A DNA stretch of 40,890 bases from Alphaproteobacteria bacterium (GTDB lineage Bacteria; Pseudomonadota; Alphaproteobacteria; CAAHEQ01; UBA3637): NCBI GenBank assembly GCA_015062245.1, contig SUVA01000009.1, positions 1 to 40,890 of the forward strand, read 5' to 3'. The notes under the pieces are model-generated. The model did not search any database. It saw only the letters and a list, made by a program, of their open reading frames with translations, and was not told where the DNA came from. Shown here in pieces: positions 25,998 through 40,098 of the stretch. A program made the translations under genes and the position numbers. Positions within the stretch are counted from its first letter, which is position 1. Every line of letters starts with the position of its first letter.

Positions 25998-26198
25998 ATG
26001 ATTGATGCAAAGACATTAAAGGTTTTGGATGAAGCTTTGGATATTGCTTTGGCTGATTTGGTTGAAGAAAATGCCATGGATAAAACATCGCCGTATGTTC
26101 AAAAGTTTGTTAAGGCGCAAAAAGTTGTTCGCCGGGAAATTGAACAAAGTGCAAAAATCAAATCCGTCTGTTTTAAGCGCTTGAATCAACGTTCTTAG
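25998..26198 (+). CDS. Small helical protein downstream of cysS
   Basis: The 66-residue product is predicted to be all-helical and charged (LKVLDEALDIALADLVEE...). It starts 1 base after the cysS stop with an AAAGGTG ribosome site, so it is likely cotranslated. It is not recognised. Its 3' end overlaps the convergent transporter gene by 26 bases, which is unusual but tolerable. Confidence 0.55.
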   Translation: MIDAKTLKVLDEALDIALADLVEENAMDKTSPYVQKFVKAQKVVRREIEQSAKIKSVCFKRLNQRS

Positions 26199-27078
26199 TT
26201 TTCCAATTACTTAAAACGATACCGGCCATAATAATGAAAGCGCCGATGAGTTGTAAAAAGGATATTTTTTCATCCAAAAGTATCCAACTTTCCAATGTGG
26301 AAAAAACAGGCATTAAATAATAGGTTAAGCCAACTTTAAAAATATCACTTTTTTCCAAAGCTCTGTTCCAACATAAATATGCCAAAGTTGAACTGAATAT
26401 ACCTAAAAACAGTAAAATCAAAACGACTTTTAATGTCAAGTTGGTATGAAATGAAAGTGGGTTTGAAAAACAATCCCAAACAAACATTGGCACGCAAAAT
26501 ACTGTCCCCCAAAACAGGCATAAACTTAAAAAAGAAAATTGATGTAATTCTTTTGGTTTTTGGGATGCTAAAAAACTGTAAAATCCAAAAGTGACGGCCG
26601 TTCCCAACATCCATAAATCACCAATACGCCAACCGATATCGCCCAGCTTATCGCTTCTGGCAAACAGGACGACCCACAATACGCCAACCAAAGTACATGA
26701 TAGGCCCATAAATTGAATGCGATTTAATCTTTGATTTTTTATCAACCATGCCCAAAACAACAAAAACAAAGGCCCTGTGGCCCCGATTAAAGATAAAGTA
26801 ATCGGCCGAACGGTTTGCCCCGCATAATAAACGCAGGTGTTGCTGATGGTAATCCCCCAAAAAGCCGACCATAAAATCAGGCTTTTGTTTTTCAAAATTT
26901 CCTGACGATTGTGTATGATATATTTTATGGTAAAGGGCAAGATTAAAATAGTGGCGATAATCCATCGGAAAAACGATATCTGCCAAGGTGTCAAAGCGTT
27001 CACCAATACATCAGCAATGATGACGTTAAAGCTCCAAAAAAAGACAGCCAATACAGCCAAGAAATAATAAAAATTCAT
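26173..27078 (-). CDS. EamA/DMT-family membrane transporter
   Basis: The 301-residue protein has about ten hydrophobic helices arranged as two EamA repeats. Examples are FYYFLAVLAVFFWSFNVIIADVLV and LTLSLIGATGPLFLLFWAWLI in the first half, and LTYYLMPVFSTLESWILLDE followed by LIGAFIIMAGIVLSNW at the end, the last a classic EamA signature. It is a drug/metabolite-type exporter of the inner membrane with unknown substrate. GGGGGA precedes the ATG. Confidence 0.88.
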   Translation of the reverse strand: MNFYYFLAVLAVFFWSFNVIIADVLVNALTPWQISFFRWIIATILILPFTIKYIIHNRQEILKNKSLILWSAFWGITISNTCVYYAGQTVRPITLSLIGATGPLFLLFWAWLIKNQRLNRIQFMGLSCTLVGVLWVVLFARSDKLGDIGWRIGDLWMLGTAVTFGFYSFLASQKPKELHQFSFLSLCLFWGTVFCVPMFVWDCFSNPLSFHTNLTLKVVLILLFLGIFSSTLAYLCWNRALEKSDIFKVGLTYYLMPVFSTLESWILLDEKISFLQLIGAFIIMAGIVLSNWKTKNVDSSA

Positions 27079-27224: not shown

Positions 27225-27300
<76 letters not shown>

Positions 27301-27817: not shown

Positions 27818-28220
27818 AGATGATTTAAAAAATCTTGCTGAAATGACATTACCTGAAGCCAAAAACTTATTCAGGGATTACTTCAACTGTAATCCACCTA
27901 AAAGGTCAAGGAGCTTTTACAATTATGTTATTGGGTACCGGATGCAAGAATTGGCCTTTGGAGGATTGTCCATGGACACTAAAAAATTACTCCTCAGTTT
28001 TGACACAAAAGCTCAATCAACGAAAAAGAAATTGCTGGCCCCTGCTGGTACCTCTATCATCAAAAACTATAAAGGGAAAGATTACGAAATTCGTATTTTG
28101 GAACATGGTTTTTGCTTTGACGGAAGACATTATAAAAGTTTGTCGGGAATTGCCAAAAAAATTACAGGAATGAGAATTTCTGGAAAAGTGTTTTTTGGAT
28201 TTACTGAAAGGAAAAGATGA
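27810..28220 (+). CDS. DUF2924 domain protein, partner of the serine recombinase
   Basis: The 136-residue protein shows the DUF2924 pattern: SFYNYVIGYRMQELAFGGLS, then an AGTSIIKNYKGKDYEIRILEHGF stretch, then YKSLSGIAKKITGMRISGKVFFGF. The family is regularly found beside large serine recombinases in alphaproteobacterial mobile elements; its function is unknown, a role as recombination accessory or directionality factor being plausible. The start at 27810 (AAGGA upstream) is chosen over 27735, which lies inside the previous gene. It overlaps the recombinase start by 4 bases. Confidence 0.85.
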   Translation: MIEDDLKNLAEMTLPEAKNLFRDYFNCNPPKRSRSFYNYVIGYRMQELAFGGLSMDTKKLLLSFDTKAQSTKKKLLAPAGTSIIKNYKGKDYEIRILEHGFCFDGRHYKSLSGIAKKITGMRISGKVFFGFTERKR

Positions 28221-29917
28221 TGGAAGAACAGAAGAAAGTTAGATGTGCAATCTATACCCGAAAATCAACAGAGGAAGGTTTAGATAAAGAATATAATACG
28301 TTGGAAGCTCAGCGGGATGCCGGATTGAGTTATATTAAAAGTCAATCTTATCAAGGATGGGTTGCGCTGGAAGAGCGATACGATGATGGGGGATATTCCG
28401 GAGGGAACATAGACCGTCCCGCTTTGCAACGTCTTTTGGAAGATGTAAAGCAGGACAAAATTGATATGATCGTCGTTTATAAAATTGACCGTCTGACACG
28501 TTCCTTGATAGATTTTTCAAAACTAATTGAAGTCTTGGATGCCCACAAATGTTCCTTTGTATCTGTTACGCAAAATTTTAATACCTGTGATTCAATGGGA
28601 CGCCTGACTCTTAACATTCTTCTTTCTTTTGCTCAATTTGAAAGGGAATTGGATGCTGAACGTATTCGGGATAAAGTAGCAGCCTCTAAAAAACGGGGAA
28701 TGTGGATGGGGGGAGTTGTTCCCCTTGGGTACGATGTTGTGGATAAAAGGTTAGTTATCAACAAGAAGGAGGCTAAATTGATTAAACTGATTTTTGATAA
28801 ATACTGTGAATTAAAATCCGAGCGAACTGTAACTCGATTTTTAAATCAAAATGGATACAAAAATAAACCGAGATTACAACGTGCCAAGGGGGTGGTTGAA
28901 GCAAAACAGTTTAGTCATTTGGGAGTTAACTTCATCTTGAGTAACACGATTTATTTAGGAAAAGTAAGACATAACGGTGTTCTTTATCCGGGGCTTCATG
29001 AAGCAATTATTTCTGAGGAACAATGGAATAAGGTTCAGATAATTAAAAAACATAATTCAGAACATCGTTTTCAACTTGGTCCAGAACGAAAATCACGATT
29101 ATTACAGGGTCTGATTGAGTGTGGCTGTTGTCACTGTGCAATGATGCCAACTCATACCACTAAAAACAAAAAAAGGTATGAATACTATGTTTCATGGCGT
29201 GCGGCTAAGGAAGGGTATAATTTATGTGAGTTAGGTAATATTCCAGCAGGAGAACTTGAGAAATTTGTTTTAACCAAAGTTCAGGACATTTTGAAATCAC
29301 CTAAAATTATAGATGAGTTAGCTCGACAACTAAAGAATACTATGCCTGAAGTAGGTGTAACAGAGATTTTTAACCATCTGAAAAATCCTTCGTTATTTTT
29401 TGATAAGCTTCCATTGAAGGTGATAAGAGAAATTTTAGAAATGACGATTTCGAGAATTATACTCCATAAAGATTGCATCATTATCCGCTTATTTCCTTTT
29501 GGAAGAGAAGCATTAAAATTTACCCGTAACAGAGAATTTAGAGTTTGTGAATCAAACAATGATATGGTGGAACTGGTTTACAATATTTCGTTTGCTAAGA
29601 AAAGAGGACGGTTAACAATTTTGCCGCCAAAAGATGAAGAACCAATTGTAGATGACACTCTGTTTCAAGCATTAGGTAAAGCGCATGTATGGCAAAGTAA
29701 AATAGATGCAGGCTCCTCATTTACAGCTCTTTCAAAAAAAGAGGGATTGGATCGAAGCTATATGGCCCGTGTTATGAGTTTAACACGACTAGCACCTGAT
29801 ATTATTGAAGCGATTATTGCAGGTAGACAACCTCTATCGCTCAAAATTTCAGACCTTATAAAAGATCCCATTCCTGTTTCTTGGGTTGAACAACGAAAAA
29901 AATATGGATTTATTTAA
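28217..29917 (+). CDS. Large serine recombinase (phage integrase)
   Basis: The 566-residue enzyme integrates and excises the element by 2-bp staggered cuts through a Ser-DNA intermediate. The catalytic N-terminal domain has YTRKSTEEG (nucleophile S17), DDGGYSGGNIDRPALQRLL, VVYKIDRLTRS and FERELDAERIRDKVAASKKRG. The recombinase domain spans about 175-280. A zinc ribbon begins LIECGCCHCAMM near 302. The last ~80 residues include a helix-turn-helix-like end (FTALSKKEGLDRSYMARVMSLTRLAPDIIEAI) typical of the alphaproteobacterial group. It is coupled to the DUF2924 gene by an ATGA overlap. Confidence 0.95.
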   Translation: MMEEQKKVRCAIYTRKSTEEGLDKEYNTLEAQRDAGLSYIKSQSYQGWVALEERYDDGGYSGGNIDRPALQRLLEDVKQDKIDMIVVYKIDRLTRSLIDFSKLIEVLDAHKCSFVSVTQNFNTCDSMGRLTLNILLSFAQFERELDAERIRDKVAASKKRGMWMGGVVPLGYDVVDKRLVINKKEAKLIKLIFDKYCELKSERTVTRFLNQNGYKNKPRLQRAKGVVEAKQFSHLGVNFILSNTIYLGKVRHNGVLYPGLHEAIISEEQWNKVQIIKKHNSEHRFQLGPERKSRLLQGLIECGCCHCAMMPTHTTKNKKRYEYYVSWRAAKEGYNLCELGNIPAGELEKFVLTKVQDILKSPKIIDELARQLKNTMPEVGVTEIFNHLKNPSLFFDKLPLKVIREILEMTISRIILHKDCIIIRLFPFGREALKFTRNREFRVCESNNDMVELVYNISFAKKRGRLTILPPKDEEPIVDDTLFQALGKAHVWQSKIDAGSSFTALSKKEGLDRSYMARVMSLTRLAPDIIEAIIAGRQPLSLKISDLIKDPIPVSWVEQRKKYGFI

Positions 29918-30677: not shown

Positions 30678-30878
30678 ATGCATTACAACCAAAATAGGAC
30701 GACTTATGAGCGGATCAGAAAATTGCCAGCATTGACCCTCATTAATATGAGCTGGGATGAGCTAAAAAAAATTGAAAAGGATATTAAACAGGAGCTGAAT
30801 CGTGTCACGATGGCCCTTAAATGGATCCAAGGTATCCAGCGTGTAAAACAGTCCAAGGAGGTGGATAATGATTGTTAA
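30678..30878 (+). CDS. Small phage protein opening the replication operon
   Basis: The 66-residue helical protein (ELKKIEKDIKQELNRVTMALKWIQGIQ) is possibly a coiled coil. Its start has an AAAGGAG ribosome site at 30666-30672. It overlaps the next ORF by 11 bases, with that gene's AAGGAGG inside its own end. It is not recognised. Confidence 0.65.
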   Translation: MHYNQNRTTYERIRKLPALTLINMSWDELKKIEKDIKQELNRVTMALKWIQGIQRVKQSKEVDNDC

Positions 30879-31515
30879 AATGTCTTTTCTCCTTTATACC
30901 TCGTTCTACAATGCCATCAAAAATCTTGATGACATCAGCGCTGGCCGATTATTTAAAGGAATTTTTGAATACCATATGTTCAAAAAACTCCCCGTTGGTC
31001 TTTCGGAACGTGGCCTGGGGTGCTTTGAAATAATGCAACCTATCTTTGATCAAAACATTGATGAATACCGAAAACGCTCTGAGCGCAACAAGAAAAATAT
31101 CCAAAAGCGCTGGAAAAAGCAGGCTGATTTCACGGATGTTATCGGTGGAAATGATACGACTGGTATAAGTGGTATGTATAATGATAATGTAAATGGTAAT
31201 GATAATGGGAATGAAAATGTAAATGTAAATGATAATAAGAAGGTTAAAAAGAAGAAGAATGAAAAAAAGAAAAAAGAGAAAAAAGAAATCCCGTTCATAA
31301 AACCAACCATCGAGGAAGTTCGGGCATACTGTGAGGCTCGTCAAAATGGAGTGGATGCTGAACACTTCTACAACTTCTACGAGGCCAAGGACTGGATGCT
31401 TGGCAAAAATAAAATCAAGAACTGGAAATGTTGTGTTCATACGTGGGAGCGCAGGAACAAAGACGTGCCTCCAAAACAGGCAACAGACATTGATGCATGG
31501 CTGGAGGCTTTATGA
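30868..31515 (+). CDS. DUF6291-like phage replication protein with Asn/Lys-rich linker
   Basis: The 215-residue protein begins MSFLLYTSFYNAIKNLDDISAGRLFKGIFEYH, the hallmark of DUF6291-type proteins found near phage replication genes. Residues ~95-140 form a low-complexity hinge, first Asn/Asp/Val repeats and then Lys/Glu. A C-terminal domain (PTIEEVRAYCEARQNGVDAEHFYNFYEAKDW...IKNWKCCVHTWER) resembles the tail of phage replisome organisers. It is probably an origin-binding or initiator-like factor. The start at 30868 is preferred over 30880 for its better spacing to AGGAGG. It overlaps the next gene at TTTATGATG. Confidence 0.75.
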   Translation: MIVKMSFLLYTSFYNAIKNLDDISAGRLFKGIFEYHMFKKLPVGLSERGLGCFEIMQPIFDQNIDEYRKRSERNKKNIQKRWKKQADFTDVIGGNDTTGISGMYNDNVNGNDNGNENVNVNDNKKVKKKKNEKKKKEKKEIPFIKPTIEEVRAYCEARQNGVDAEHFYNFYEAKDWMLGKNKIKNWKCCVHTWERRNKDVPPKQATDIDAWLEAL

Positions 31516-32078
31516 TGGAAGAAGAAGACAAAATGGAAAAAGCCAGCCTTCAAACCAAAACGGTTTTGAAGATTTTTGCGGATATTTATGGAATTCCCAG
31601 CTGGCAAAAAAATCCCAAGGATGGACAGGATGTTGGTAAAATCATCAAGCTGTGGAACGAAACACTTCATGGTTATTCCCTAGCCCAGGTGGAGGAAGCG
31701 GCGTTTCATATAGTGCGCCAGCAAAAGTCTATGCGTTTTCCAACAATCAGTCATATGCGGGCGCAGTTGTTTGATAAAAGCAAAGAAGAAGACATCAAGC
31801 AAAAAATTGCCGAAATAGAAAAGAAACTCCGTGAACCCCGTGAAGAAACGGATCCAATCCGTAAAAGAATGTGTTCTTTTTACGTGGGTGGACATAAAGT
31901 TCTGCCGGGTGTTTATGAGTGGGCAGCCAAACAGGTGATAAATGATGTGGAACGTACTTATCCGGAGCTCAGATTTTCTAGTTATGGCCCATTGGTTAGA
32001 AAAGCTGAGGAATTGGGTTGGCTGGATAGCGGCAAGATCATTGATTATTGCAAAGAGATCGGAGGTTATAATGACTGA
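31512..32078 (+). CDS. Putative phage helicase loader-like protein
   Basis: The 188-residue soluble protein has an N-terminal block (VLKIFADIYGIPSWQ...IIKLWNETLHGYSLAQVEEAAFHIVRQQKSMRFPTISHMRAQLF) whose spacing resembles phage helicase loader/inhibitor (G39P-like) N-domains. A charged helix follows, then an unrecognised C-terminal part (PGVYEWAAKQVINDVERTYPELRF). Its position directly after an initiator-like gene fits that role, but the assignment is inference. GGAGG lies inside the end of the upstream gene; the downstream start overlaps its stop (ATGACTGA). Confidence 0.5.
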   Translation: MMEEEDKMEKASLQTKTVLKIFADIYGIPSWQKNPKDGQDVGKIIKLWNETLHGYSLAQVEEAAFHIVRQQKSMRFPTISHMRAQLFDKSKEEDIKQKIAEIEKKLREPREETDPIRKRMCSFYVGGHKVLPGVYEWAAKQVINDVERTYPELRFSSYGPLVRKAEELGWLDSGKIIDYCKEIGGYND

Positions 32079-32472
32079 ACTGACTTTGGATGAAATCAAG
32101 GACACTTTGGAAACAGCGGCTTATGTGGAACGTCTGATGCCTCCAGTTCGCCCGCCCAAGTATCGTTCTTGTATACCCGAGATTATTTATACGCCCCAAG
32201 AGTTAGCCTTCATGGATCGGCGACTGGTTCGTCCTCGCCCAACACAGGCACAGGTGGGCCTGTGGGAGATGGTGGTTTTGGAATGGTTACCCCTCCTTAC
32301 CCCCTATGAGCACAACTTGGTTTGGAAGCGAGCCAACCGTTTACCTTGGAAACTCCTTTGCCGGGAATTGGGGCGCACGCGTGTTCATCTGTGGCGGATT
32401 TACGATCGTGCTTTGATGAAAATTCAGATGAAACAAAAATCAAAAAAATGTTGTCAACATAAAAAGACTTAA
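32071..32472 (+). CDS. DUF6362 family prophage protein
   Basis: The 133-residue protein carries the DUF6362 pattern: MPPVRPPKYRSCIPEI, then WEMVVLEWLPLLTPYEHNLVWKRANRLPWKLLCRELGRTRVHLWRIYDRAL. The second part is a helix-turn-helix-like DNA-binding region. Such proteins are frequent in alphaproteobacterial prophages and may be late regulators. The start at 32071 follows a GGAGG ribosome site. It is the last gene of the overlapping 30678-32472 operon. Confidence 0.8.
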   Translation: MTELTLDEIKDTLETAAYVERLMPPVRPPKYRSCIPEIIYTPQELAFMDRRLVRPRPTQAQVGLWEMVVLEWLPLLTPYEHNLVWKRANRLPWKLLCRELGRTRVHLWRIYDRALMKIQMKQKSKKCCQHKKT

Positions 32473-32497: not shown

Positions 32498-32509
32498 TTG
32501 AGTACAATC

Positions 32510-32551
32510 GGGAGTGGAATGCGAACAAGCACCACTCCCCTTGATTTTTTT
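32510..32551 (+). terminator. Terminator-like hairpin near the start of the metK leader
   Basis: GGGAGTGG (32510-32517) pairs with CCACTCCC (32532-32539), and a T tract follows at 32545-32551. It can end the upstream operon. Because it lies just after the predicted start of the metK transcript, it could also act as an early attenuator. Confidence 0.6.
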
Positions 32552-32577
32552 CATTAAATTTGGCAAAATAAACCTAA

Positions 32578-32644
32578 CCTCATCGGGTGATGAGGTGATG
32601 TGGATTTAAGCCGACTTGTCCCACTAAAGCGGACTAAACAGGAG
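32578..32644 (+). promoter_or_regulatory. Structured leader, candidate SAM-II/SAM-V-like riboswitch
   Basis: A perfect hairpin CCTCATC-GGGT-GATGAGG (32578-32595) is followed by interleaved pairings. GTGG (32600-32603) pairs with CCAC (32621-32624), and TTTAagCCG (32605-32613) with CGGacTAAA (32630-32638). That order is an H-type pseudoknot. The blocks GTGG, ATTT, AGCCG, CTTG, CCAC, TAAA and CTAAA appear in the order I recall for SAM-II riboswitches. The AGGAG ribosome site of the SAM synthetase starts 2 bases after the last pairing. The resemblance is judged from memory, without a covariance search. Confidence 0.4.
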
Positions 32645-32652
32645 AAAGCTTT

Positions 32653-33654
32653 ATGCGTAAAACAGCAGAAGCGGTGTCGATTGGCCACCCAGATAAAACA
32701 GCCGATTACATTTCAAGTTATATTTTAGATCGTTTAATTGAACAAGACCCCGAGGTCAGGTATGCCGTTGAGGTGATGGTGAAAGATAACAACGTCATCT
32801 TGGGGGGAGAAGTGACCGGCCATGTGGATATGGCAGGGATTAAGGATCATGTCCGACAAGCCTTGCGCGAAGTCGGGTATGATGAACGCTATGCCACGAT
32901 TTGGGGGAAGCACGCCATTGACATTAACCAAATCAAGATCCTGAACTTGATCGGGGTGCAATCATCCGATATTGGTCAGGGTGTCCAGCAAAATGGCTGG
33001 GGTGACCAAGGGGTATTTGTGGGTTTTGCTTGTCAGGGCGATGGGCTTATCAACAGCGAACTGTTCCTGGCCAAAAAATTAAACAATTCTCTTTACATGA
33101 AAGCACGTCAAAGTGATAACTTGGGGATTGACATTAAAACGCAGATTACCTTGGCGGACGATGGCCATGTTGAAACTGCGATTGCGGCAGTACCCATGTT
33201 AAAACCTGAAAGCCTGGAAGAGTTCATCTGTGACACTTTGGGGGAAGTCCCCGACAAGATCATCGTAAATGGAACGGGCGTGTATCAAACCCACTCGGCC
33301 ATTGCTGACTGTGGGATCACGGGACGGAAACTGGCCTGTGATTTTTATTCCACTGCTTGCCCGATTGGAGGTGGAAGTCCTTGGACCAAGGATGCCAGCA
33401 AGGCTGATTTAACCTTGAACCTCTACGCCCGCCGGTTGGCTGTTCAATACTTGGCAGATAATGATGCGTGTTTTGTGTTCCTGTCCTCCTGCATTGGACG
33501 GGCAGAACTCCCCAGTGCTGTCATCAAAACGATCAAGGGGAATGAACGCAAAGAACTCAACCTGTCCATCAACAAAACACCAACTGAACTGATTGAAAGT
33601 TTAGACCTCAGAAAGCCCGTGTTTGCGCGGCTTTGTCTGAATGGTTTAGTCTAA
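32653..33654 (+). CDS. metK: Prophage S-adenosylmethionine synthetase
   Basis: MetK makes SAM from methionine and ATP. The 333-residue protein keeps the main active-site blocks: GHPDK at 11-15, GGEVTG at 51-56, GDQG at 117-120, GITGRK at 221-226 and GGGSPWTKDASKAD at 239-252 with the catalytic-type lysines. It is shorter than the usual ~380-400 residues. The central region is compact, and it ends soon after the DLRKP equivalent of the E. coli DLRPYG segment, lacking the C-terminal AYGHFGR region. It may therefore be a minimal but active form; this needs testing. Its location between phage replication genes and a SAM-dependent methyltransferase suggests local supply of methyl donor. Confidence 0.9.
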   Translation: MRKTAEAVSIGHPDKTADYISSYILDRLIEQDPEVRYAVEVMVKDNNVILGGEVTGHVDMAGIKDHVRQALREVGYDERYATIWGKHAIDINQIKILNLIGVQSSDIGQGVQQNGWGDQGVFVGFACQGDGLINSELFLAKKLNNSLYMKARQSDNLGIDIKTQITLADDGHVETAIAAVPMLKPESLEEFICDTLGEVPDKIIVNGTGVYQTHSAIADCGITGRKLACDFYSTACPIGGGSPWTKDASKADLTLNLYARRLAVQYLADNDACFVFLSSCIGRAELPSAVIKTIKGNERKELNLSINKTPTELIESLDLRKPVFARLCLNGLV

Positions 33655-33698
33655 TCTCAAGCCCCTGCTACCCTGGGTCCTTCCTCATCTTACTCGCT

Positions 33699-33728
33699 AT
33701 GCGGGGACGCAAGCCGCGGCATTTTTTT
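33699..33728 (+). terminator. Possible terminator after metK
   Basis: ATGC (33699-33702) can pair with GCAT (33719-33722), with GG/CC inside, and a T tract follows. The stem is imperfect. Confidence 0.4.
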
Positions 33729-33808
33729 AGCGAAACGCCTTTTTGTTTGGTGGTCGGGGGTATCTCAAACACCAGTAATATCAACGCCTTTGAGGGGTAG
33801 TCCTCTCT

Positions 33809-33843
33809 TTTGGGTGGTCACCTATACGATTTGGGTGGTCACC
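33809..33843 (+). promoter_or_regulatory. Twin operator-like repeats before the methyltransferase
   Basis: The 14-base sequence TTTGGGTGGTCACC occurs at 33809-33822 and 33830-33843, 21 bases apart start to start (two helical turns). Each contains the palindrome GGTG-N2-CACC. A partial third copy, TTTGGTGGTC, is at 33746-33755. The second copy ends 11 bases before the AAGGA ribosome site. Confidence 0.6.
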
Positions 33844-33865
33844 CTTTCTTTTTTAAGGAATTAAC

Positions 33866-35089
33866 ATGCATTTTCAAGAAAACTTTCCGGTGGATCAACT
33901 GATCCCCTATGCCCGTAATTCTCGGACACACAACGAAGAACAGGTCACACAAATTGTGGCCAGCATCAAGGAGTTTGGATTCACAAACCCCATTCTGATT
34001 GATAAGGACAATGTCATCATTGCCGGTCATGGCCGGTTAATGGCCGCCCAAAGGATGGGCCTGAAAACGGTACCCGTCATCCAACTGCCCCACCTGACAG
34101 AAACGCAACGCCGCGCTTTGGTCATAGCCGACAACAAAATTGCAATGAATGCCGGCTGGAACGAAGAAATGCTCCACTTAGAATTGGAGGATTTAAAGGA
34201 AGAGGATTTTAATTTGGACCTGTTGGGCTTTAATCCGGACGAATTGAAAGAGATTGAACTGTTCGGGGAAACTAACCCAGAGGTCTCTGACAAGGATGAT
34301 GAGGTACCTGAACCACCCGAAGAGCCGATTACCAAAAGAGGCGATGTTTGGATTTTGGGTAAACACCGGTTGATTTGTGGGGACACAACCATGATTGATG
34401 ATATCAAAAAGCTGATGCAAGATGATATCGCCGATATGATCTTTACCGATCCCCCCTATAATGTGAACTATGGGGCCACAATGAAGGATGCGCTCCGGTA
34501 CCATTCCAGTCCCAATCACGATCGGCGGATCATGAACGATAACTTGGGCGAGGACTTTGGCCAGTTCTTGACAGACAGTTTATCCAATATGTTGATGTAT
34601 TGCCGGGGGGCCGCTTATGTATGTATGAGTTCCTCAGAGCTGCATACCCTTTACAATGCGTTTGTAGCGGCAGGGGGTAAATGGTCCACCTTTATCATTT
34701 GGGCCAAAAATACCTTCACCTTGGGTCGGTCAGATTACCAACGGCAATATGAGCCTATCCTTTACGGTTGGGTTAAAGATAAAGAACACCACTGGTGTGG
34801 GGACAGAAATCAGTCCGATGTTTGGGAATACAACAAGCCCGTCCGGAACGATTTGCACCCGACTATGAAACCGGTGGAGCTGGTTATGCGGGCCATCGAA
34901 AATAGCTCCAAACTGGGGGATATTGTTTTGGATGGATTTGGGGGCTCTGGATCCACGCTGATTGCCTGTCAAAAGCTAGGCCGAGTCGCTCGAGTCGTCG
35001 AATTAGATCCGAAATACTGCGATGTGATCATCAAACGCTGGGAAGAAATGACTGGCAAAAAGGCTGTTCTGTGGGAGAATGAAGAATAG
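33866..35089 (+). CDS. ParB-like/DNA methyltransferase fusion (N6-adenine or N4-cytosine)
   Basis: The 407-residue protein has an N-terminal ParB/sulfiredoxin-like nuclease-fold domain (residues 1-95: QLIPYARNSRTHNEEQVTQIVASIKEFGFTNPILID, then AGHGRLMAAQRMG). A C-terminal beta-class type methyltransferase follows, with DPPY at 195-198 before the SAM-binding FGGSGST at 358-364. It transfers methyl groups from SAM to DNA bases. No restriction enzyme is adjacent, so it is an orphan modification enzyme, common in alphaproteobacterial phages. Possible roles are protection from host restriction or marking phage DNA. Its neighbour metK makes its cosubstrate. Confidence 0.93.
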   Translation: MHFQENFPVDQLIPYARNSRTHNEEQVTQIVASIKEFGFTNPILIDKDNVIIAGHGRLMAAQRMGLKTVPVIQLPHLTETQRRALVIADNKIAMNAGWNEEMLHLELEDLKEEDFNLDLLGFNPDELKEIELFGETNPEVSDKDDEVPEPPEEPITKRGDVWILGKHRLICGDTTMIDDIKKLMQDDIADMIFTDPPYNVNYGATMKDALRYHSSPNHDRRIMNDNLGEDFGQFLTDSLSNMLMYCRGAAYVCMSSSELHTLYNAFVAAGGKWSTFIIWAKNTFTLGRSDYQRQYEPILYGWVKDKEHHWCGDRNQSDVWEYNKPVRNDLHPTMKPVELVMRAIENSSKLGDIVLDGFGGSGSTLIACQKLGRVARVVELDPKYCDVIIKRWEEMTGKKAVLWENEE

Positions 35090-35222: not shown

Positions 35223-35299
35223 ATTCGAATAAGAGCGATTGTTGTGTTGTAAGCAAAGGCATGATGGCCCGCGCAAAAACTAAAATAAAAGGATACGAA

Positions 35300-35611
35300 A
35301 TGAAGACAGTTAAAACTTACATGGTCAGAAAGCCCGCAGACCTCGACGAAGTAAAGAGCATAACCAGAGCCAACAGCGACAGACTTGAAACTGTGGCGGT
35401 GGTTGAAATCATTAACCTGACACCAGCCGAACATAAAAGAGTATGCAAGAACCCATTAAACGACTACGGCTTCTTAAAAGGCAAAGGCGGCTACTCTAGT
35501 GAGCATGAATATCGCCAGGTGGTTGAGATTACAGCAGACGGCCAACCGACACTTTACGCCGACCCGTCTGGTTCAAGCTACTGCCGCTACTTAGGCATAG
35601 AGGTTAAATAA
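35300..35611 (+). CDS. Small accessory prophage protein A
   Basis: The 103-residue soluble protein (opening MKTVKTYMVRKPADLDEVKSI) is not confidently recognised. A conserved-looking segment LTPAEHKRVCKNPLNDYGFLKGKGGY lies in the middle. ATG at 35300 is chosen for its AAAGGA ribosome site; an in-frame ATG at 35261 would add 13 basic residues. It is the first of five closely spaced genes. Codon choice (GCC, GAC, AAC, AGC) differs from the host genes upstream. Confidence 0.7.
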   Translation: MKTVKTYMVRKPADLDEVKSITRANSDRLETVAVVEIINLTPAEHKRVCKNPLNDYGFLKGKGGYSSEHEYRQVVEITADGQPTLYADPSGSSYCRYLGIEVK

Positions 35612-35621
35612 GGAGGTCGAT

Positions 35622-35918
35622 ATGATGAATAAAAAAGCAAACCTGAACCAAGCCTTTAAAGAGCTCCGTAAGCTCGGATATTTTGCAAGACAAAACTTTA
35701 TGTGCTGTCAATCCTGCGCTTGGGCCGCGGTACCGATGGATGCCAAAAAGGTGGTCTTTTACCACAGGCAAGATACCGAGGAATTAAACAAGACCGGTGA
35801 ATGTTACCTTGCCTGGTCCGGTGACCGGGACGAAATCGCCGAGGTCTTGGAACGCAACGGGGTCTTAAAGACAAAGCCCGAGGACGAAGGCAAAAGATTT
35901 GAAATCAGCATTAACTAG
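35622..35918 (+). CDS. Small accessory prophage protein B, DUF6891-like
   Basis: In this 98-residue protein the pattern LRKLGYFARQNFMCCQSCAWAAV, VFYHRQDTEELNKTGECYLAWSG resembles DUF6891-type proteins: a short helix, a CC-x2-C cluster, then H-x-QDT. The Cys cluster may bind metal. AAGGAGG precedes the start. It lies 10 bases after protein A. Its function is unknown. Confidence 0.7.
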   Translation: MMNKKANLNQAFKELRKLGYFARQNFMCCQSCAWAAVPMDAKKVVFYHRQDTEELNKTGECYLAWSGDRDEIAEVLERNGVLKTKPEDEGKRFEISIN

Positions 35919-35930
35919 AAAGGAAAAACA

Positions 35931-36422
35931 ATGACTGAGATTTTAAAGACACAAAACAAAACCTGGGGATTTTGGGGAACCGCCAGCAACCATATAGAAC
36001 ATAAAAAGGAAATGCAGGCATTTTGGGATAAGGCCGCCGAGATAATCCAATCCAAGGGCTTAACCCCGCAACAAACCTTAGGGCTGATGGACAGTCGCTG
36101 GGGCCGCCACATCGCTGACGAGTTTGCCGAAGAACTCAGCACTAACCTGGAAACATTCGCCTCAGTATTTAAACGGCAAATGAGCACGATCCGCCTGATT
36201 AAGGAGTTCCGCTATTATGTGGACCCGAAAGCATTCCCGGACGTAAAGCCTCGCGCTTATGAGAATTTCGCCAAGGATTTAACCAAACTCTGCAAGACCT
36301 ACGGCGTAACGATTAAATGCATCGGCGGCGTGGTCCTGCACTCGCAAGACGAACTGAAAAAGCTCCTTGGTTATAGCTCAGATTTAGATAGCGGTGATAT
36401 TTACCCGATTTGGAAGGATTAA
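35931..36422 (+). CDS. Small accessory prophage protein C
   Basis: This 163-residue soluble protein is predicted to be largely helical (HKKEMQAFWDKAAEIIQSKGLTPQQTLGLMDSRWGRHIADEFAEEL). It has a C-terminal alpha/beta-like end (LCKTYGVTIKCIGGVVLHSQDELKKL). It is not recognised as a named family. An AAAGGA ribosome site precedes it and it is 12 bases from gene B, so it is part of the cassette operon. Confidence 0.65.
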   Translation: MTEILKTQNKTWGFWGTASNHIEHKKEMQAFWDKAAEIIQSKGLTPQQTLGLMDSRWGRHIADEFAEELSTNLETFASVFKRQMSTIRLIKEFRYYVDPKAFPDVKPRAYENFAKDLTKLCKTYGVTIKCIGGVVLHSQDELKKLLGYSSDLDSGDIYPIWKD

Positions 36423-36424
36423 AA

Positions 36425-36796
36425 ATGTATAAGAATGTACCCAAAACATTACAGATAAAAATAAAAAAGGCCGCCGATATTATTAACAGCCACAATGGGG
36501 TTGTAGATACGATGTTGGTCGCAAAGGGAAAAGATTTTTATGGATATCAGCCTTATCCCCAACCGAAAAAGGAACCTGCTTCTAAGGTGCCTAAAGAACG
36601 GATGGAGGAACTCAGCCACGCCTTCGAAGAAGCTCAAAAAGCACTTACAAAAGAGAAAGTTGAACTTCTTGTTTGTTTTGTATCCTTAAAAGAAGGAGGC
36701 GTAGCGGTCTTTGTAGCTCAAAAAGCAGTTGATCGCCGGCTGAGCGTTTTTGAAGAACTGAAAAAAATGGAGGAACACCATGCCAAAATATCCTGA
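36425..36796 (+). CDS. Small accessory prophage protein D
   Basis: The 123-residue protein has a Lys/Pro-rich middle (GYQPYPQPKKEPASKVPKERMEEL) and a C-terminal helix, with no signal peptide. The start at 36425 has AAGGA upstream and sits 2 bases after the gene C stop; the ATG at 36410 would overlap gene C. Its end overlaps gene E by 17 bases. It is not recognised. Confidence 0.6.
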   Translation: MYKNVPKTLQIKIKKAADIINSHNGVVDTMLVAKGKDFYGYQPYPQPKKEPASKVPKERMEELSHAFEEAQKALTKEKVELLVCFVSLKEGGVAVFVAQKAVDRRLSVFEELKKMEEHHAKIS

Positions 36797-36977
36797 TATT
36801 ACGGTCCAGCTGACCGGTAAAGACGGGAATGCATTTAATATATTAGGTATATGTTTGCGGGCGATGCGCCGGGCCGGATTAAGCCAAGAAGAACGCGATA
36901 CCTTTCAGGCGGAAGCAACATCCGGCAATTATGACCACTTACTTGCCACCTGTATGGAATGGTTTAACGTAGAATAA
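36780..36977 (+). CDS. Small accessory prophage protein E
   Basis: The 65-residue protein (MPKYPDITVQLTGKDGNAFNILGICLRAMRRAG, then EATSGNYDHLLATCMEWFNVE) resembles a small conserved protein I have seen in many bacterial mobile elements. Its role is unknown. GGAGG precedes the start, inside gene D. It is the last gene of the cassette, ending at a bidirectional terminator. Confidence 0.7.
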   Translation: MPKYPDITVQLTGKDGNAFNILGICLRAMRRAGLSQEERDTFQAEATSGNYDHLLATCMEWFNVE

Positions 36978-36985
36978 TTGGAAAT

Positions 36986-37023
36986 AAAAAAACTGGGATT
37001 TTTTGAAAAATCCTAGTTTTTTT
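36986..37023. terminator. Bidirectional terminator between convergent units
   Basis: AAAAAAACT-G-GGATTTTT pairs with AAAAATCC-T-AGTTTTTTT around a short loop. It has A and T tracts on both sides and so serves both the plus-strand cassette and the minus-strand DUF3489 gene. A further ATCCCAG copy at 37028-37034 can compete for pairing. Confidence 0.8.
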
Positions 37024-37461: not shown

Positions 37462-37980
37462 ATGGGAAAAAAAGTATCACTTCGGGAATATGCCCGGATA
37501 CGGGGGGTCCAGTTGAGCGCTGTACAAAAGGCAATCCACGCTGGTCGCATCCAAACCCAACCAAATGGGAAAATTGATGTGGATGAGGCCAACCGAGACT
37601 GGTTCATGAACACGGATCCGGCCAAAAGTCATAAAACGGACCCATTGTTCCAGGAACAGGAACCGCAGGTTGCCTCTTTTCGGCAAAATGCCAATACATT
37701 TCAGCAGGCAAAAACAGCCGATGTTTATTACCGGGCTATGTTGGCCAAAGCCAAATGGCGGATGATTACAGGGGAAACGATAGACCGTAAAAAAGCGGGC
37801 GCTTACGCCTTTAATTTGGGGCGCTCTTTAAGGGATTTATTTATTGCATTTCCCACACGATACGGGGCATTAATTGCCTCAGAACTGGGAACAGATGAAC
37901 ACAAAACGGTGACGATATTAGATGAATATGTCAGAAAACTTTTATCAGAAAGCAAAGACCTCATCAACCGAGAGCTTTGA
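37462..37980 (+). CDS. Terminase small subunit, Nu1-like
   Basis: The 172-residue protein begins with a winged-helix DNA-binding segment (KVSLREYARIRGVQLSAVQKAIHAGRI, then a Gly/Lys turn) of the Nu1/excisionase-like type. A linker follows, then a helical C-terminal part (VYYRAMLAKAKWRMITGETIDRKKAGAYAFNLGRSLRDLFI) usual for lambda-type small terminases. It binds the packaging site and recruits the large subunit. It overlaps terL by 59 bases. Only a weak GAAG ribosome site is seen. Confidence 0.8.
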   Translation: MGKKVSLREYARIRGVQLSAVQKAIHAGRIQTQPNGKIDVDEANRDWFMNTDPAKSHKTDPLFQEQEPQVASFRQNANTFQQAKTADVYYRAMLAKAKWRMITGETIDRKKAGAYAFNLGRSLRDLFIAFPTRYGALIASELGTDEHKTVTILDEYVRKLLSESKDLINREL

Positions 37981-39868
37981 TGCAAATGCCTTTATTGATG
38001 CTGAATTTTTTCGTGGGGTAGAACCGGATTCTTATATGTCGGTATCGGATTGGGCTGATGCATACCGGATTTTATCCAGTAAGTCTGCCTCGGAGCCTGG
38101 GCGCTGGCGAACAGAACGTACTCCTTATTTGAAAGAAATCATGGATTGCCTGTCGCCCAGAAGCCCCATTCAAAAAATTGTCTTTATGAAAGGGGCGCAG
38201 ATCGGCGGGACAGAATGCGGTAATAACTGGATCGGCTATATTATGCATAAAGCCCCCGGTCCAATTATGGCAGTCTCCCCTACGGTGGAAATGGCTAAAC
38301 GTAATTCCAAACAACGGATTGATCCACTGATTGAGGACTGTCCCCCTTTAAAAGGGATTGTCAGCTCTCCCCGTTCCCGGGATAAAGGTAATACCATGCT
38401 GTCAAAGGACTTTCAGGGGGGCGTGTTAGTGATGACCGGAGCAAACTCGGCGGTGGGCTTGCGTTCCATGCCGGCCAGATACTTATTTATGGATGAAATT
38501 GATGGTTATCCGCATGATTTAGATGGTGAAGGTGATCCGATCCTGTTGGCTGAGCGGCGGACGGCTACCTTTAATAAACGTAAAAAGATATTCTTAGTTT
38601 CCACGCCCACAATCAAGGGATTATCCAACATTGAGCGGGAATTTAGCCTGTCGGATCAGCGCTATTACATGGTCCCGTGTCCTTTTTGCGGAGGTTTCCA
38701 ACGTTTAGAATGGGACAACATCCGCGCCGAAAATGGCAAGGTGGCCTACGAATGTTGTCATTGCCATCAACTAATTGGCGAACATTATAAAACACAAATG
38801 CTTGCCCAAGGGCATTGGCAAGCAACTGCCACCGGGGATGGATTAACCGCAGGTTTCCACTTATCCTCACTTTACTCGCCGGTCGGGTGGCTTTCATGGA
38901 AAGAATGTATGGACATTTTTGAAAAGACCAAAACAAATCCGGCACTGGTTCAGGGATTTCGGAATACCATTTTAGGCGAAACTTACGAACAGGAAAGCGA
39001 TGCCCCCGAGTGGCAACGTCTTTATGAAACCCGCGAAACCTACCCAATCGGGACGGTTCCGATGGGTGGATTGTTCTTGACAGCCGGTGTGGATATTCAA
39101 AAAGACCGTATTGAATGTGAGGTTGTTGCTTGGGGCCGGCAAAAACAGAGCTGGTCTGTTGATTATTACGTTTTAGATGGCGACACGGCTAAACCTGAAG
39201 TTTGGGCCAAACTCACTGAAGTCATTAATAAAGACTACCCTCACGAAAGTGGGATCACAATGCCCATCCGGGTAATGTGCGTTGACTCCGGTTACGCCAC
39301 ACAGGATGTTTACAATTTTGTGCGGCGCTTTAATCAGGCAGTTTGGGGGGGATCGGGTGCTAGAGCCAGCTTACCTCGGACAGTCGTTGCGATTAAAGGG
39401 CAAAGTCGTGATACAGCAATGCTTTTGTCCACCTCTAAAGCCGACACCAAGAAAAAGGGCTTGAAGGTCTGGAACGTATCCGGTCCGGTGATCAAGACCG
39501 AGCTTTACCGGTGGTTAAAGATGGAACGGGTTGGCGAAAATGCAACTGATTTTGGAAAATGCCATTTCCCTCAATATGCCGAGGAATATTTCCGCCAGTT
39601 AACAGCTGAGCGCCAAATCATCAAGATTTCCAATGGCTATCCAAAACCTGTTTGGGAAAAGGATCCTGCCAGACGGAACGAAGCGCTGGACTGCCGGGTT
39701 TATGCAAGAGCCGGTGCGGCCATATATGGTCTTGATCGGATATCAGAAAAAGGCTGGCAAGAACTGGAGGCTGTTATTCCGCAAACACCAAACCAAAAGG
39801 TAAAAGTTAAAAAACAACCTAAATTTATACAACTTCAACCAACAAAGGTGAATGATCCATGGTTATAA
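37922..39868 (+). CDS. Terminase large subunit, lambda gpA family
   Basis: The 648-residue protein translocates DNA into the prohead and cuts at cos or pac sites. It has WADAYRILSSKSASEPGRWRTERTPYLKE at 44-72, the Walker A-like MKGAQIGGTE at 89-98, Walker B LFMDE at 188-192, a zinc-type CPFCGG...CCHCHQL and a C-terminal nuclease domain (TAGVDIQKDRIECEVVAWG). The start is uncertain: ATG at 37922 and 37928 both lie inside the small subunit gene and lack a clear ribosome site, so initiation may depend on translation of the upstream gene. Confidence 0.95.
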   Translation: MNMSENFYQKAKTSSTESFDANAFIDAEFFRGVEPDSYMSVSDWADAYRILSSKSASEPGRWRTERTPYLKEIMDCLSPRSPIQKIVFMKGAQIGGTECGNNWIGYIMHKAPGPIMAVSPTVEMAKRNSKQRIDPLIEDCPPLKGIVSSPRSRDKGNTMLSKDFQGGVLVMTGANSAVGLRSMPARYLFMDEIDGYPHDLDGEGDPILLAERRTATFNKRKKIFLVSTPTIKGLSNIEREFSLSDQRYYMVPCPFCGGFQRLEWDNIRAENGKVAYECCHCHQLIGEHYKTQMLAQGHWQATATGDGLTAGFHLSSLYSPVGWLSWKECMDIFEKTKTNPALVQGFRNTILGETYEQESDAPEWQRLYETRETYPIGTVPMGGLFLTAGVDIQKDRIECEVVAWGRQKQSWSVDYYVLDGDTAKPEVWAKLTEVINKDYPHESGITMPIRVMCVDSGYATQDVYNFVRRFNQAVWGGSGARASLPRTVVAIKGQSRDTAMLLSTSKADTKKKGLKVWNVSGPVIKTELYRWLKMERVGENATDFGKCHFPQYAEEYFRQLTAERQIIKISNGYPKPVWEKDPARRNEALDCRVYARAGAAIYGLDRISEKGWQELEAVIPQTPNQKVKVKKQPKFIQLQPTKVNDPWL

Positions 39869-40098
39869 ACATTGAAATTTTGAAAACAAGACTGATTGAG
39901 GCAGAAGAAGCCTACCATAAACTGCTCATCGGAGCCAAAGAAGTTTCGGTTAATGTCGGCAATTTCGGTTCGGTGACCTACAACCAAACCTCACGAGCGG
40001 CTTTGGAAAGTTATATCTCAAGTCTAAAATCTCAAATTGCGGCGGCCGAAGGTAAAACGACAACCTCTCGCAGACGTATGATAAAGGTGGCATTCTAA
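39859..40098 (+). CDS. Head-tail joining protein, gpW-like
   Basis: The 79-residue protein has a helical hairpin pattern (LKTRLIEAEEAYHKLLIGAKEVSVNVGNFGSVTYNQTSRAALESYISSLKSQIAAA) typical of lambda gpW. That protein plugs the connector so DNA stays in the head and tails can attach. It overlaps terL by 10 bases and its stop overlaps the portal start (TAATG), which is the lambda A-W-B order. Confidence 0.85.
   Translation: MVINIEILKTRLIEAEEAYHKLLIGAKEVSVNVGNFGSVTYNQTSRAALESYISSLKSQIAAAEGKTTTSRRRMIKVAF

Follow-up and report, generated by a model that had tools for sequence, protein, structure and literature searches.

Phage-borne genes for S-adenosylmethionine (SAM) synthetase, metK, are well documented, and the presence of such a gene beside a DNA methyltransferase gene is already published and not new. 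In 2014, the SAM synthetase of phage Phi1207.3 was suggested to supply methyl groups (PMC4260502). Deletion of a prophage metK in Streptococcus agalactiae altered biofilm and growth, with partial restoration by plasmid-borne metK (PMC8223999), and metK is among the commonest metabolic genes in pig-gut prophages (PMC12454387). Among SAM-sensing RNAs, SAM-V riboswitches are known before metY, bhmt, mmuM, and metH, and SAM-II riboswitches before metA, metX, and metY (papers including PMC2704228 and PMC6061858), while the SAM-SAH riboswitch of Rhodobacterales controls metK alone in an alphaproteobacterial group (PMC4239095). Riboswitches have been reported as rare in phages (PMC9004378), and we found no SAM-V or SAM-II example before metK or in a phage in the open-access literature. 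Here we analyze a prophage metK in an alphaproteobacterial genome, on contig SUVA01000009.1 (the window; 40,890 bases, the whole contig, whose end cuts off the prophage on its right side). What goes beyond published cases is a separate clade of short MetK proteins, its distribution in the host family, and the gene's own predicted promoter, leader RNA, and terminator. We propose that these parts probably form a self-regulated SAM-synthesis cassette (promoter, SAM-V/SAM-II-like leader, short MetK, and terminator) that moves between phages and chromosomes.

A predicted metK transcription unit recurs as a probably mobile segment

The window metK likely has its own promoter, leader RNA, and terminator, all of them predicted (Table 1). 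The -10 box lies at a constant distance before the leader in most relatives, several of which match 9-11 of the 12 promoter consensus positions, versus 8 of 12 in the window. Phage morons are recognized by a promoter and terminator of their own; here, an 8/12 promoter match and a terminator-like hairpin were found from sequence alone. Because promoter, leader, and terminator all appear to be present, metK is probably not cotranscribed with the methyltransferase gene that follows it.

Near copies of this unit are found elsewhere in the host family (G numbers denote genomes, L numbers fetched loci, and C numbers contigs; G000 is the window's own genome). We called copies chromosomal or prophage-borne from neighboring open reading frames (ORFs), by eye and with phmmer against a small reference set. 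DNA comparison revealed that a near copy in G007 corresponds to window positions 32521-33853 and directly follows a recombinase gene. This locus (L041:5509-8443, on G007:C57) is a prophage remnant in which a serine recombinase gene is followed by the metK cassette and the other phage genes are gone; its metK is the only one found in that genome, which is 91% complete. A decayed copy in G006 spans 32503-33854, its ends matching 32503-32774 and 33698-33854, and in this eroded cassette (L043:8868-9985, on G006:C70) the leader and the terminator region are still recognizable. G006 also carries, elsewhere in its chromosome, an intact phage-type copy with 93% identity (window 32561-33604). Both the G007 span and the decayed G006 span match the segment that separates the DUF6362 and methyltransferase genes in the prophage, which holds the predicted promoter, the leader, metK, and the terminator-like hairpin.

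The leader RNA has the architecture of SAM-V and SAM-II riboswitches

The sequence directly 5' of metK in the window is GTGGATTTAAGCCGACTTGTCCCACTAAAGCGGACTAAACAGGAG. Scanning the fetched loci uncovered 25 intact distinct leaders and one decayed leader, and the intact ones have GGATTTA-n5-AnTTGTCC...GGACTAAA in common. Type A leaders (16 intact) abut metK and carry an extra 5' hairpin, P0; type B leaders (nine, from genus g2) lie ~139-157 bases upstream of metK, and at least one is followed by a terminator-like hairpin (fold of L048). Like SAM-V (RF01826; PMC2704228, PMC6061858) and SAM-II (RF00521), these leaders are predicted to form an H-type pseudoknot just 5' of the start codon, in which P1 stands directly before AUUU, UUG...CUAAA follows, and the ribosome-binding site comes at once. 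They differ from both in falling below the Rfam threshold and in the P0 hairpin of type A. The SAM-SAH riboswitch of Rhodobacterales also controls metK, and it gave no Rfam match among the leaders scanned here.

Over 17 aligned type A rows, the whole leader structure covaried at 0.446, versus 0.185 when shuffled and at most 0.177 when slid, and all seven P0 pairs changed on both sides. For P1 across both leader types, covariation was 0.444, versus 0.261 shuffled and at most 0.231 slid. Each of the inner four P1 pairs is present in 22 or more of the 24 rows. Farther out, the pairs at columns 7/35 and 8/34 are present in only 7 and 12 rows, which makes this part of the helix chiefly a type B extension. 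In the SAM-V crystal structure, U47 and A50 hydrogen-bond SAM, and a U20:A48.U9 triple lies at the sulfonium (PMC6061858). The equivalents of SAM-V U8, U9, U10, U19, U20, G21, U47, A48, A49, and A50, assigned by eye from the order of elements, are identical in 25 of 25 intact leaders, and the P2 pair A23-U44 is replaced by C-G with the helix kept. Furthermore, cmscan matched Rfam SAM_V full-length, at subthreshold scores, to the leaders of four relatives (24.0 and 23.9 bits for L002 and L109, 18.0 for L057, and 17.3 for L094). We call the element SAM-V/SAM-II-like and do not file it in RF01826 because it scores below the gathering threshold.

The core motif occurs at 25 places in 43 host-family genomes, and 22 of these precede short metK (one of them decayed); one other lies at a contig edge, and the last two, without the motif's second half, appear to be chance occurrences. 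A reversed control pattern occurred twice. Within the host family, the leader is restricted to short metK. Across 190 alphaproteobacterial genomes, our leader model R1 found only the home family, one strong match (G207, family f39), and one weak match (G080). Among the matches listed in a leader-motif scan of IMG/VR, only the same phage as in the window has a complete leader.

These results suggest that the leader RNA may bind SAM and repress translation. It is quite unlikely that the element is a conserved cis-regulator of metK that does not sense SAM and instead binds a protein or another metabolite. Such a role would fit the failure to reach the SAM_V gathering score and the G207 match (L267:157-241; 44.9 bits), which precedes a 159-amino-acid ORF of another family that has no Pfam match and whose P1 differs in sequence (AAAGCGG/CCGCTTT). 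The nucleotides that contact SAM in the crystal structure are nevertheless identical (PMC6061858), the element order is the same, and the target is a SAM-making enzyme.

Several observations on the leader weigh against the proposed cassette. The count of P1 pairs with changes on both sides does not exceed that in shuffles (4 vs 4.7), and there is little variation in the pseudoknot pairs, which differ only from the published SAM-V sequence. The single-sequence fold is unremarkable (z -1.4, from a program that cannot score a pseudoknot). The best SAM_V score, 24.0 bits, is far below the RF01826 gathering score of 41; no Rfam SAM family matched the window leader, even with a 101-base query, or the one type B leader tested; and the position of SAM-V A18 is usually C. 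The leader is also missing from 8 of 14 phage or prophage copies (L047, L049, L051, L053, L079, L093, L096, and L008) and from six chromosomal copies (L061, L062, and L068-L071, with limited flank for L062). Some leaderless copies carry other structured or terminator-like sequence in its place. For example, two leaderless prophage metK genes have a terminator-like hairpin just 5' of the ribosome-binding site (L049:8150-8298 and L047:7905-8045, both on the minus strand), and L049 folds far better than shuffles (z -5.9).

With a SAM-sensing leader, the cassette could work as follows. MetK would make SAM from ATP and methionine. At high levels, SAM would bind the leader pseudoknot, the ribosome-binding site would be hidden, and MetK synthesis would stop; when SAM falls, for instance as the neighboring methyltransferase modifies replicating phage DNA, MetK translation would resume. 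The same kind of cassette would move between phages and the chromosomes of the host family, where the short-type enzyme would have become the only MetK of most members, and it may benefit phage or host. If true, this would be a SAM riboswitch variant in phages that controls a metabolic gene. Such a regulatory RNA would predict that metK is expressed only when SAM is short, which makes the reason for a phage metK testable.

The short-type MetK retains the methionine adenosyltransferase fold and active site

The initial annotation, made from the DNA alone, described a complete 333-residue MetK-like protein with GHPDK, GDQG, and GGGS...KD motifs, and we found the ORF and all of these motifs as described. 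The window protein matches Pfam S-AdoMet_synt_N (2.7e-22) and S-AdoMet_synt_C (6.1e-14), both above cut-off; of the PF00438/PF02772/PF02773 set, the central methionine adenosyltransferase (MAT) domain is in the right order and under the cut-off (25.6 vs 29 bits). Its sequence also matches solved MetK proteins. PHROG 1569 is matched full-length (4.7e-67; residues 3-332 to profile positions 3-336 of 346). Despite this match, PHROGs version 4 lists PHROG 1569 as of unknown function; if our reading is true, it would become an annotated family. A structure prediction gave a MAT fold: a model built from an alignment of 32 relatives (mean pLDDT 85.7; under 50 for residues 219-241) superposed on 4le5 with Z 34.1 over 315 residues at 2.3 Å, and all top matches were MATs.

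We take 17 E. coli MetK positions to be catalytic or substrate-binding: E8, H14, D16, K17, E42, E55, Q98, D118, D163, K165, D238, R244, K245, K265, K269, D271, and I302. In the alignment, 37-38 of the 38 short-type proteins keep each of these residues, the one exception being an N-terminal gap, and the window protein has all the catalytic residues from H14 to D271. The A40 position holds A or G, and the F230 position holds Y or F. Compared with canonical bacterial MetK (TIGR01034; E. coli 7LOO), the window protein shares the fold, active-site residues, and domain order, but is ~31-34% identical and ~50 residues shorter, and the short type's signature GGGSPWTKDxSKADLT replaces canonical GGGAFSGKDPSKVDRS, with R272 and S186 substituted. 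Near copies of short metK evolve under purifying selection, with dN/dS for the window gene of 0.034 to L041 and 0.111 to L042. The protein would probably catalyze SAM formation from ATP and methionine.

Less favorable to this assignment, S186 is A in all short-type proteins, R229 is variable, and R272 is L or V, and the window protein and the chromosomal copy on contig C17 score 165.8 and 164.2 bits against the TIGR01034 metK equivalog cut-off of 309.4. Because the score is under the curated cut-off, we call the protein MetK-like and not a TIGR01034 equivalog. The shortened C-terminus had been read as casting doubt on activity. Short-type relatives share the feature, including enzymes that are the sole MetK of their genome, and we rejected truncation or damage as its explanation.

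Short-type MetK forms a separate clade shared by phages and chromosomes

A phylogeny against host metK, proposed in the initial annotation, placed the window MetK and its relatives apart from canonical MetK, as a fully supported group (100/100) on a very long branch. Short MetK is a separate, deep clade, found in the searched data only in gut Alphaproteobacteria and their phages. Full-length members reach ~570-630 bits with a short-clade profile, and canonical MetK proteins from the family and class stay below 190. The profile revealed one more member in another alphaproteobacterial family (G291) and none in 60 genomes sampled across the phylum, where the best outside score was 195 bits.

With canonical MetK as the root, the earliest branches are phage copies (L008, then L079); the remaining sequences group with support of 98/87 and 90/92, and a single nested group (81/87) contains 18 chromosomal copies. 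Two chromosomal copies, L042 and L109, fall inside phage clades. The starred branches of the tree require three or more switches between phage and chromosome. The branching order makes phage-to-host the likely main direction of transfer, which we grade as likely and not as shown because the root branch is so long. The opposite history, in which short MetK arose in bacterial chromosomes and was captured by phages several times, is unlikely in our view: the root of the clade does sit on a very long branch in an unsure position, and the chromosomal copies L052 and L006 are also in the basal polytomy of the first tree, but this history runs counter to the early-branching phage copies, the nesting of the 18 chromosomal copies, and the placement of L042 and L109.

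Short-type and canonical MetK are mutually exclusive in the host family

Among the 43 host-family genomes, 27 are good (completeness of 90% or more, contamination of 5% or less); 16 of these have only short-type MetK, six only canonical MetK, five neither, and none both. The two types are thus mutually exclusive in the family's good genomes. Chromosomal short copies stand in ordinary surroundings, for example beside ftsH/tilS-like genes on contig C17 of the window's genome and beside pheST-like genes in G003 and G005 (names read off translations). One of the six genomes with only canonical MetK is G018, where the gene (L072:7217-8214) reads as two ORFs that overlap in different frames, apparently through a frameshift. 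We tentatively suggest that a phage-borne MetK cassette with a SAM-sensing leader replaced the housekeeping metK in most of this gut alphaproteobacterial family and is still exchanged among phages, decayed prophages, and chromosomes, an account that we find quite possible and somewhat short of probable. An essential enzyme and its riboswitch would then have been domesticated as one mobile unit. If true, it would be a clear case of an essential, normally vertically inherited enzyme displaced by a phage-type version. Two points count against the proposed cassette: all host genomes are draft assemblies, and the C17 copy (G000:C17:92690-93688) makes the prophage metK look redundant in this host. 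The same copy bears on a concern raised in the initial annotation, that the host might lack any other metK; with it and the phage neighbors of the window gene, we ruled out that the latter is the chromosomal metK.

No bacterial MetK was detectable in G001, G008, G017, G019, and G059, which are 92-100% complete. Those tested all keep RsmH, which uses SAM, and have no archaeal MAT, which we rejected as a substitute; SAM import is a possibility. A transporter of the window's EamA type was discarded as the importer, with no match in several of these genomes. An EamA relative does adjoin the chromosomal metK of G015 and G024 (L068:5515-6426; L069:3213-4124).

Genomes of this kind would fit lysogenic conversion, in which the cassette would serve its host between infections and top up or replace a metK that is easily lost in a reduced-genome lineage. 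The G007 remnant, reduced to recombinase and sole detected metK, and the effects of prophage metK deletion on S. agalactiae biofilm and growth (PMC8223999) point the same way. However, every genome with a clearly intact metK prophage (G000, G013, G028, G029, and G058) also carries short metK in its chromosome, and another G007 copy could lie outside the assembly. We therefore regard lysogenic conversion as doubtful, if somewhat less so than capture from hosts.

The metK-methyltransferase pair is recurrent in phages

The initial annotation reported a ParB-like/DPPY methyltransferase after metK within phage gene order, and both hold: a ParB_N and N6_N4_Mtase protein is encoded there, with a recombinase gene upstream and terminase genes downstream. 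Prophages of G013 (two), G028, G029 (two), and G058 share the order DUF6291-DUF6362-metK-methyltransferase, as do viral contigs L093, L094, and L095; two extra genes are present in L094 and, before the methyltransferase gene, in one of the G029 prophages. The sequences of L097 and L098 start within metK and retain the pair. In L096 and L008, the methyltransferase gene instead immediately precedes metK. A methyltransferase gene is close by in short-clade phage contexts with enough flank; L079 ends soon after metK.

The search for such pairs in other phages, suggested at the outset, showed that they recur in distant metK phages as well. We obtained 132 phage records by tblastn, 90 of them from Streptococcus, and metK, an adenine methyltransferase, and terminase are annotated in Javan244, Javan630, and phi1605. 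We did not accept all 132 as phage genes: Salmonella (L092) and Acinetobacter (L087) records show housekeeping neighborhoods, and H. pylori matches may be host DNA because prophages there often insert beside host metK (PMC11321410). Phages of the Phi1207.3/Javan type resemble the window in having metK a few genes upstream of ParB-domain/adenine methyltransferase and terminase genes. Their MetK falls outside the short clade and is nearer to canonical MetK; for Javan244, identity is 49% to Salmonella MetK and 33% to the window protein. S. agalactiae 12/111phiA likewise keeps a prophage-borne metK in the lysogen (PMC8223999), but is a streptococcal prophage whose phenotype is aggregation and biofilm, not DNA methylation.

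The suggestion that metK supplies SAM to the methyltransferase stands in part, in that the pair is real and recurrent; cotranscription of the two genes is improbable. In its strong form, phage MetK would mainly feed the phage's own DNA methyltransferase during replication, and fast methylation would evade host restriction. We consider this possible, with more reservation than for the replacement account and less than for lysogenic conversion. It accords with the closeness of the methyltransferase gene in short-clade phages and in the distant metK phages Javan244, Javan630, phi1605, and NatCom_35866, and with the proposal for Phi1207.3 (PMC4260502). On the other hand, metK and the methyltransferase gene seem to be transcribed separately, given the terminator-like hairpin at 33812-33844; this host carries a chromosomal metK as well; with a SAM-repressed leader, expression would stay low until SAM had already fallen; and non-phage copies are kept without the methyltransferase.

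Organization of the prophage locus

The features of the locus are collected in Table 1. IMG/VR viral contig 3300032167_007982 is 100% identical to the window over 11987 bases. The DUF6362 ORF was listed from 31942, and we picked its internal ATG by comparison with relatives.

Table 1 Features of the window discussed in the text, with predicted elements named as such
Feature	Position	Strand	Evidence
EamA transporter beside prophage	26173-27078	-	
tRNA-Lys (CTT), last clearly host feature before prophage	27225-27300	+	ARAGORN; Rfam tRNA 73.1 bits
Serine recombinase (prophage integrase)	28217-29917	+	Pfam Resolvase, Recombinase, Zn_ribbon_recom
DUF6291 protein, conserved upstream gene of phage metK neighborhood	30868-31515	+	Pfam; same order in related phages
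DUF6362 protein, directly 5' of metK in most related phages	32071-32472	+	Pfam; gene order in relatives
Predicted metK promoter, TTGATT-17-CAAAAT	32541-32569	+	8/12 consensus
Conserved leader RNA, SAM-V/SAM-II-like pseudoknot	32566-32648	+	Alignments; pair counts; model R1 97.4 bits; subthreshold Rfam SAM_V matches to four relatives
Leader elements P0; P1; pseudoknot (PK)	32578-32595; 32600-32603/32621-32624; 32618-32620/32632-32634	+	
AGGAG ribosome-binding site, two bases 3' of pseudoknot-region UAAA	32640-32644	+	Sequence; alignment
Short-type methionine adenosyltransferase (MetK-like), 333 aa, ATG start	32653-33654	+	
Terminator-like hairpin, 13 pairs then TTTCTTTTTT, between metK and methyltransferase gene	33812-33844	+	
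ParB_N + N6/N4 DNA methyltransferase (N6_N4_Mtase), 407 aa, DPPY motif	33866-35089	+	Pfam; PHROG 498
Terminase small subunit	37462-37980	+	PHROG 57
Terminase large subunit (GpA type)	37922-39868	+	Pfam; PHROG

A subthreshold PhotoRC-I RNA match at 39899-39936 (23.4 vs 45 bits) is probably chance. Downstream of the methyltransferase gene, window positions 35298-36986 share 84-92% DNA identity with prophages of another genus (L055 and L056), whereas metK and the methyltransferase gene are only ~70% identical to theirs, which points to mosaic exchange, the break falling close to where the methyltransferase gene ends.

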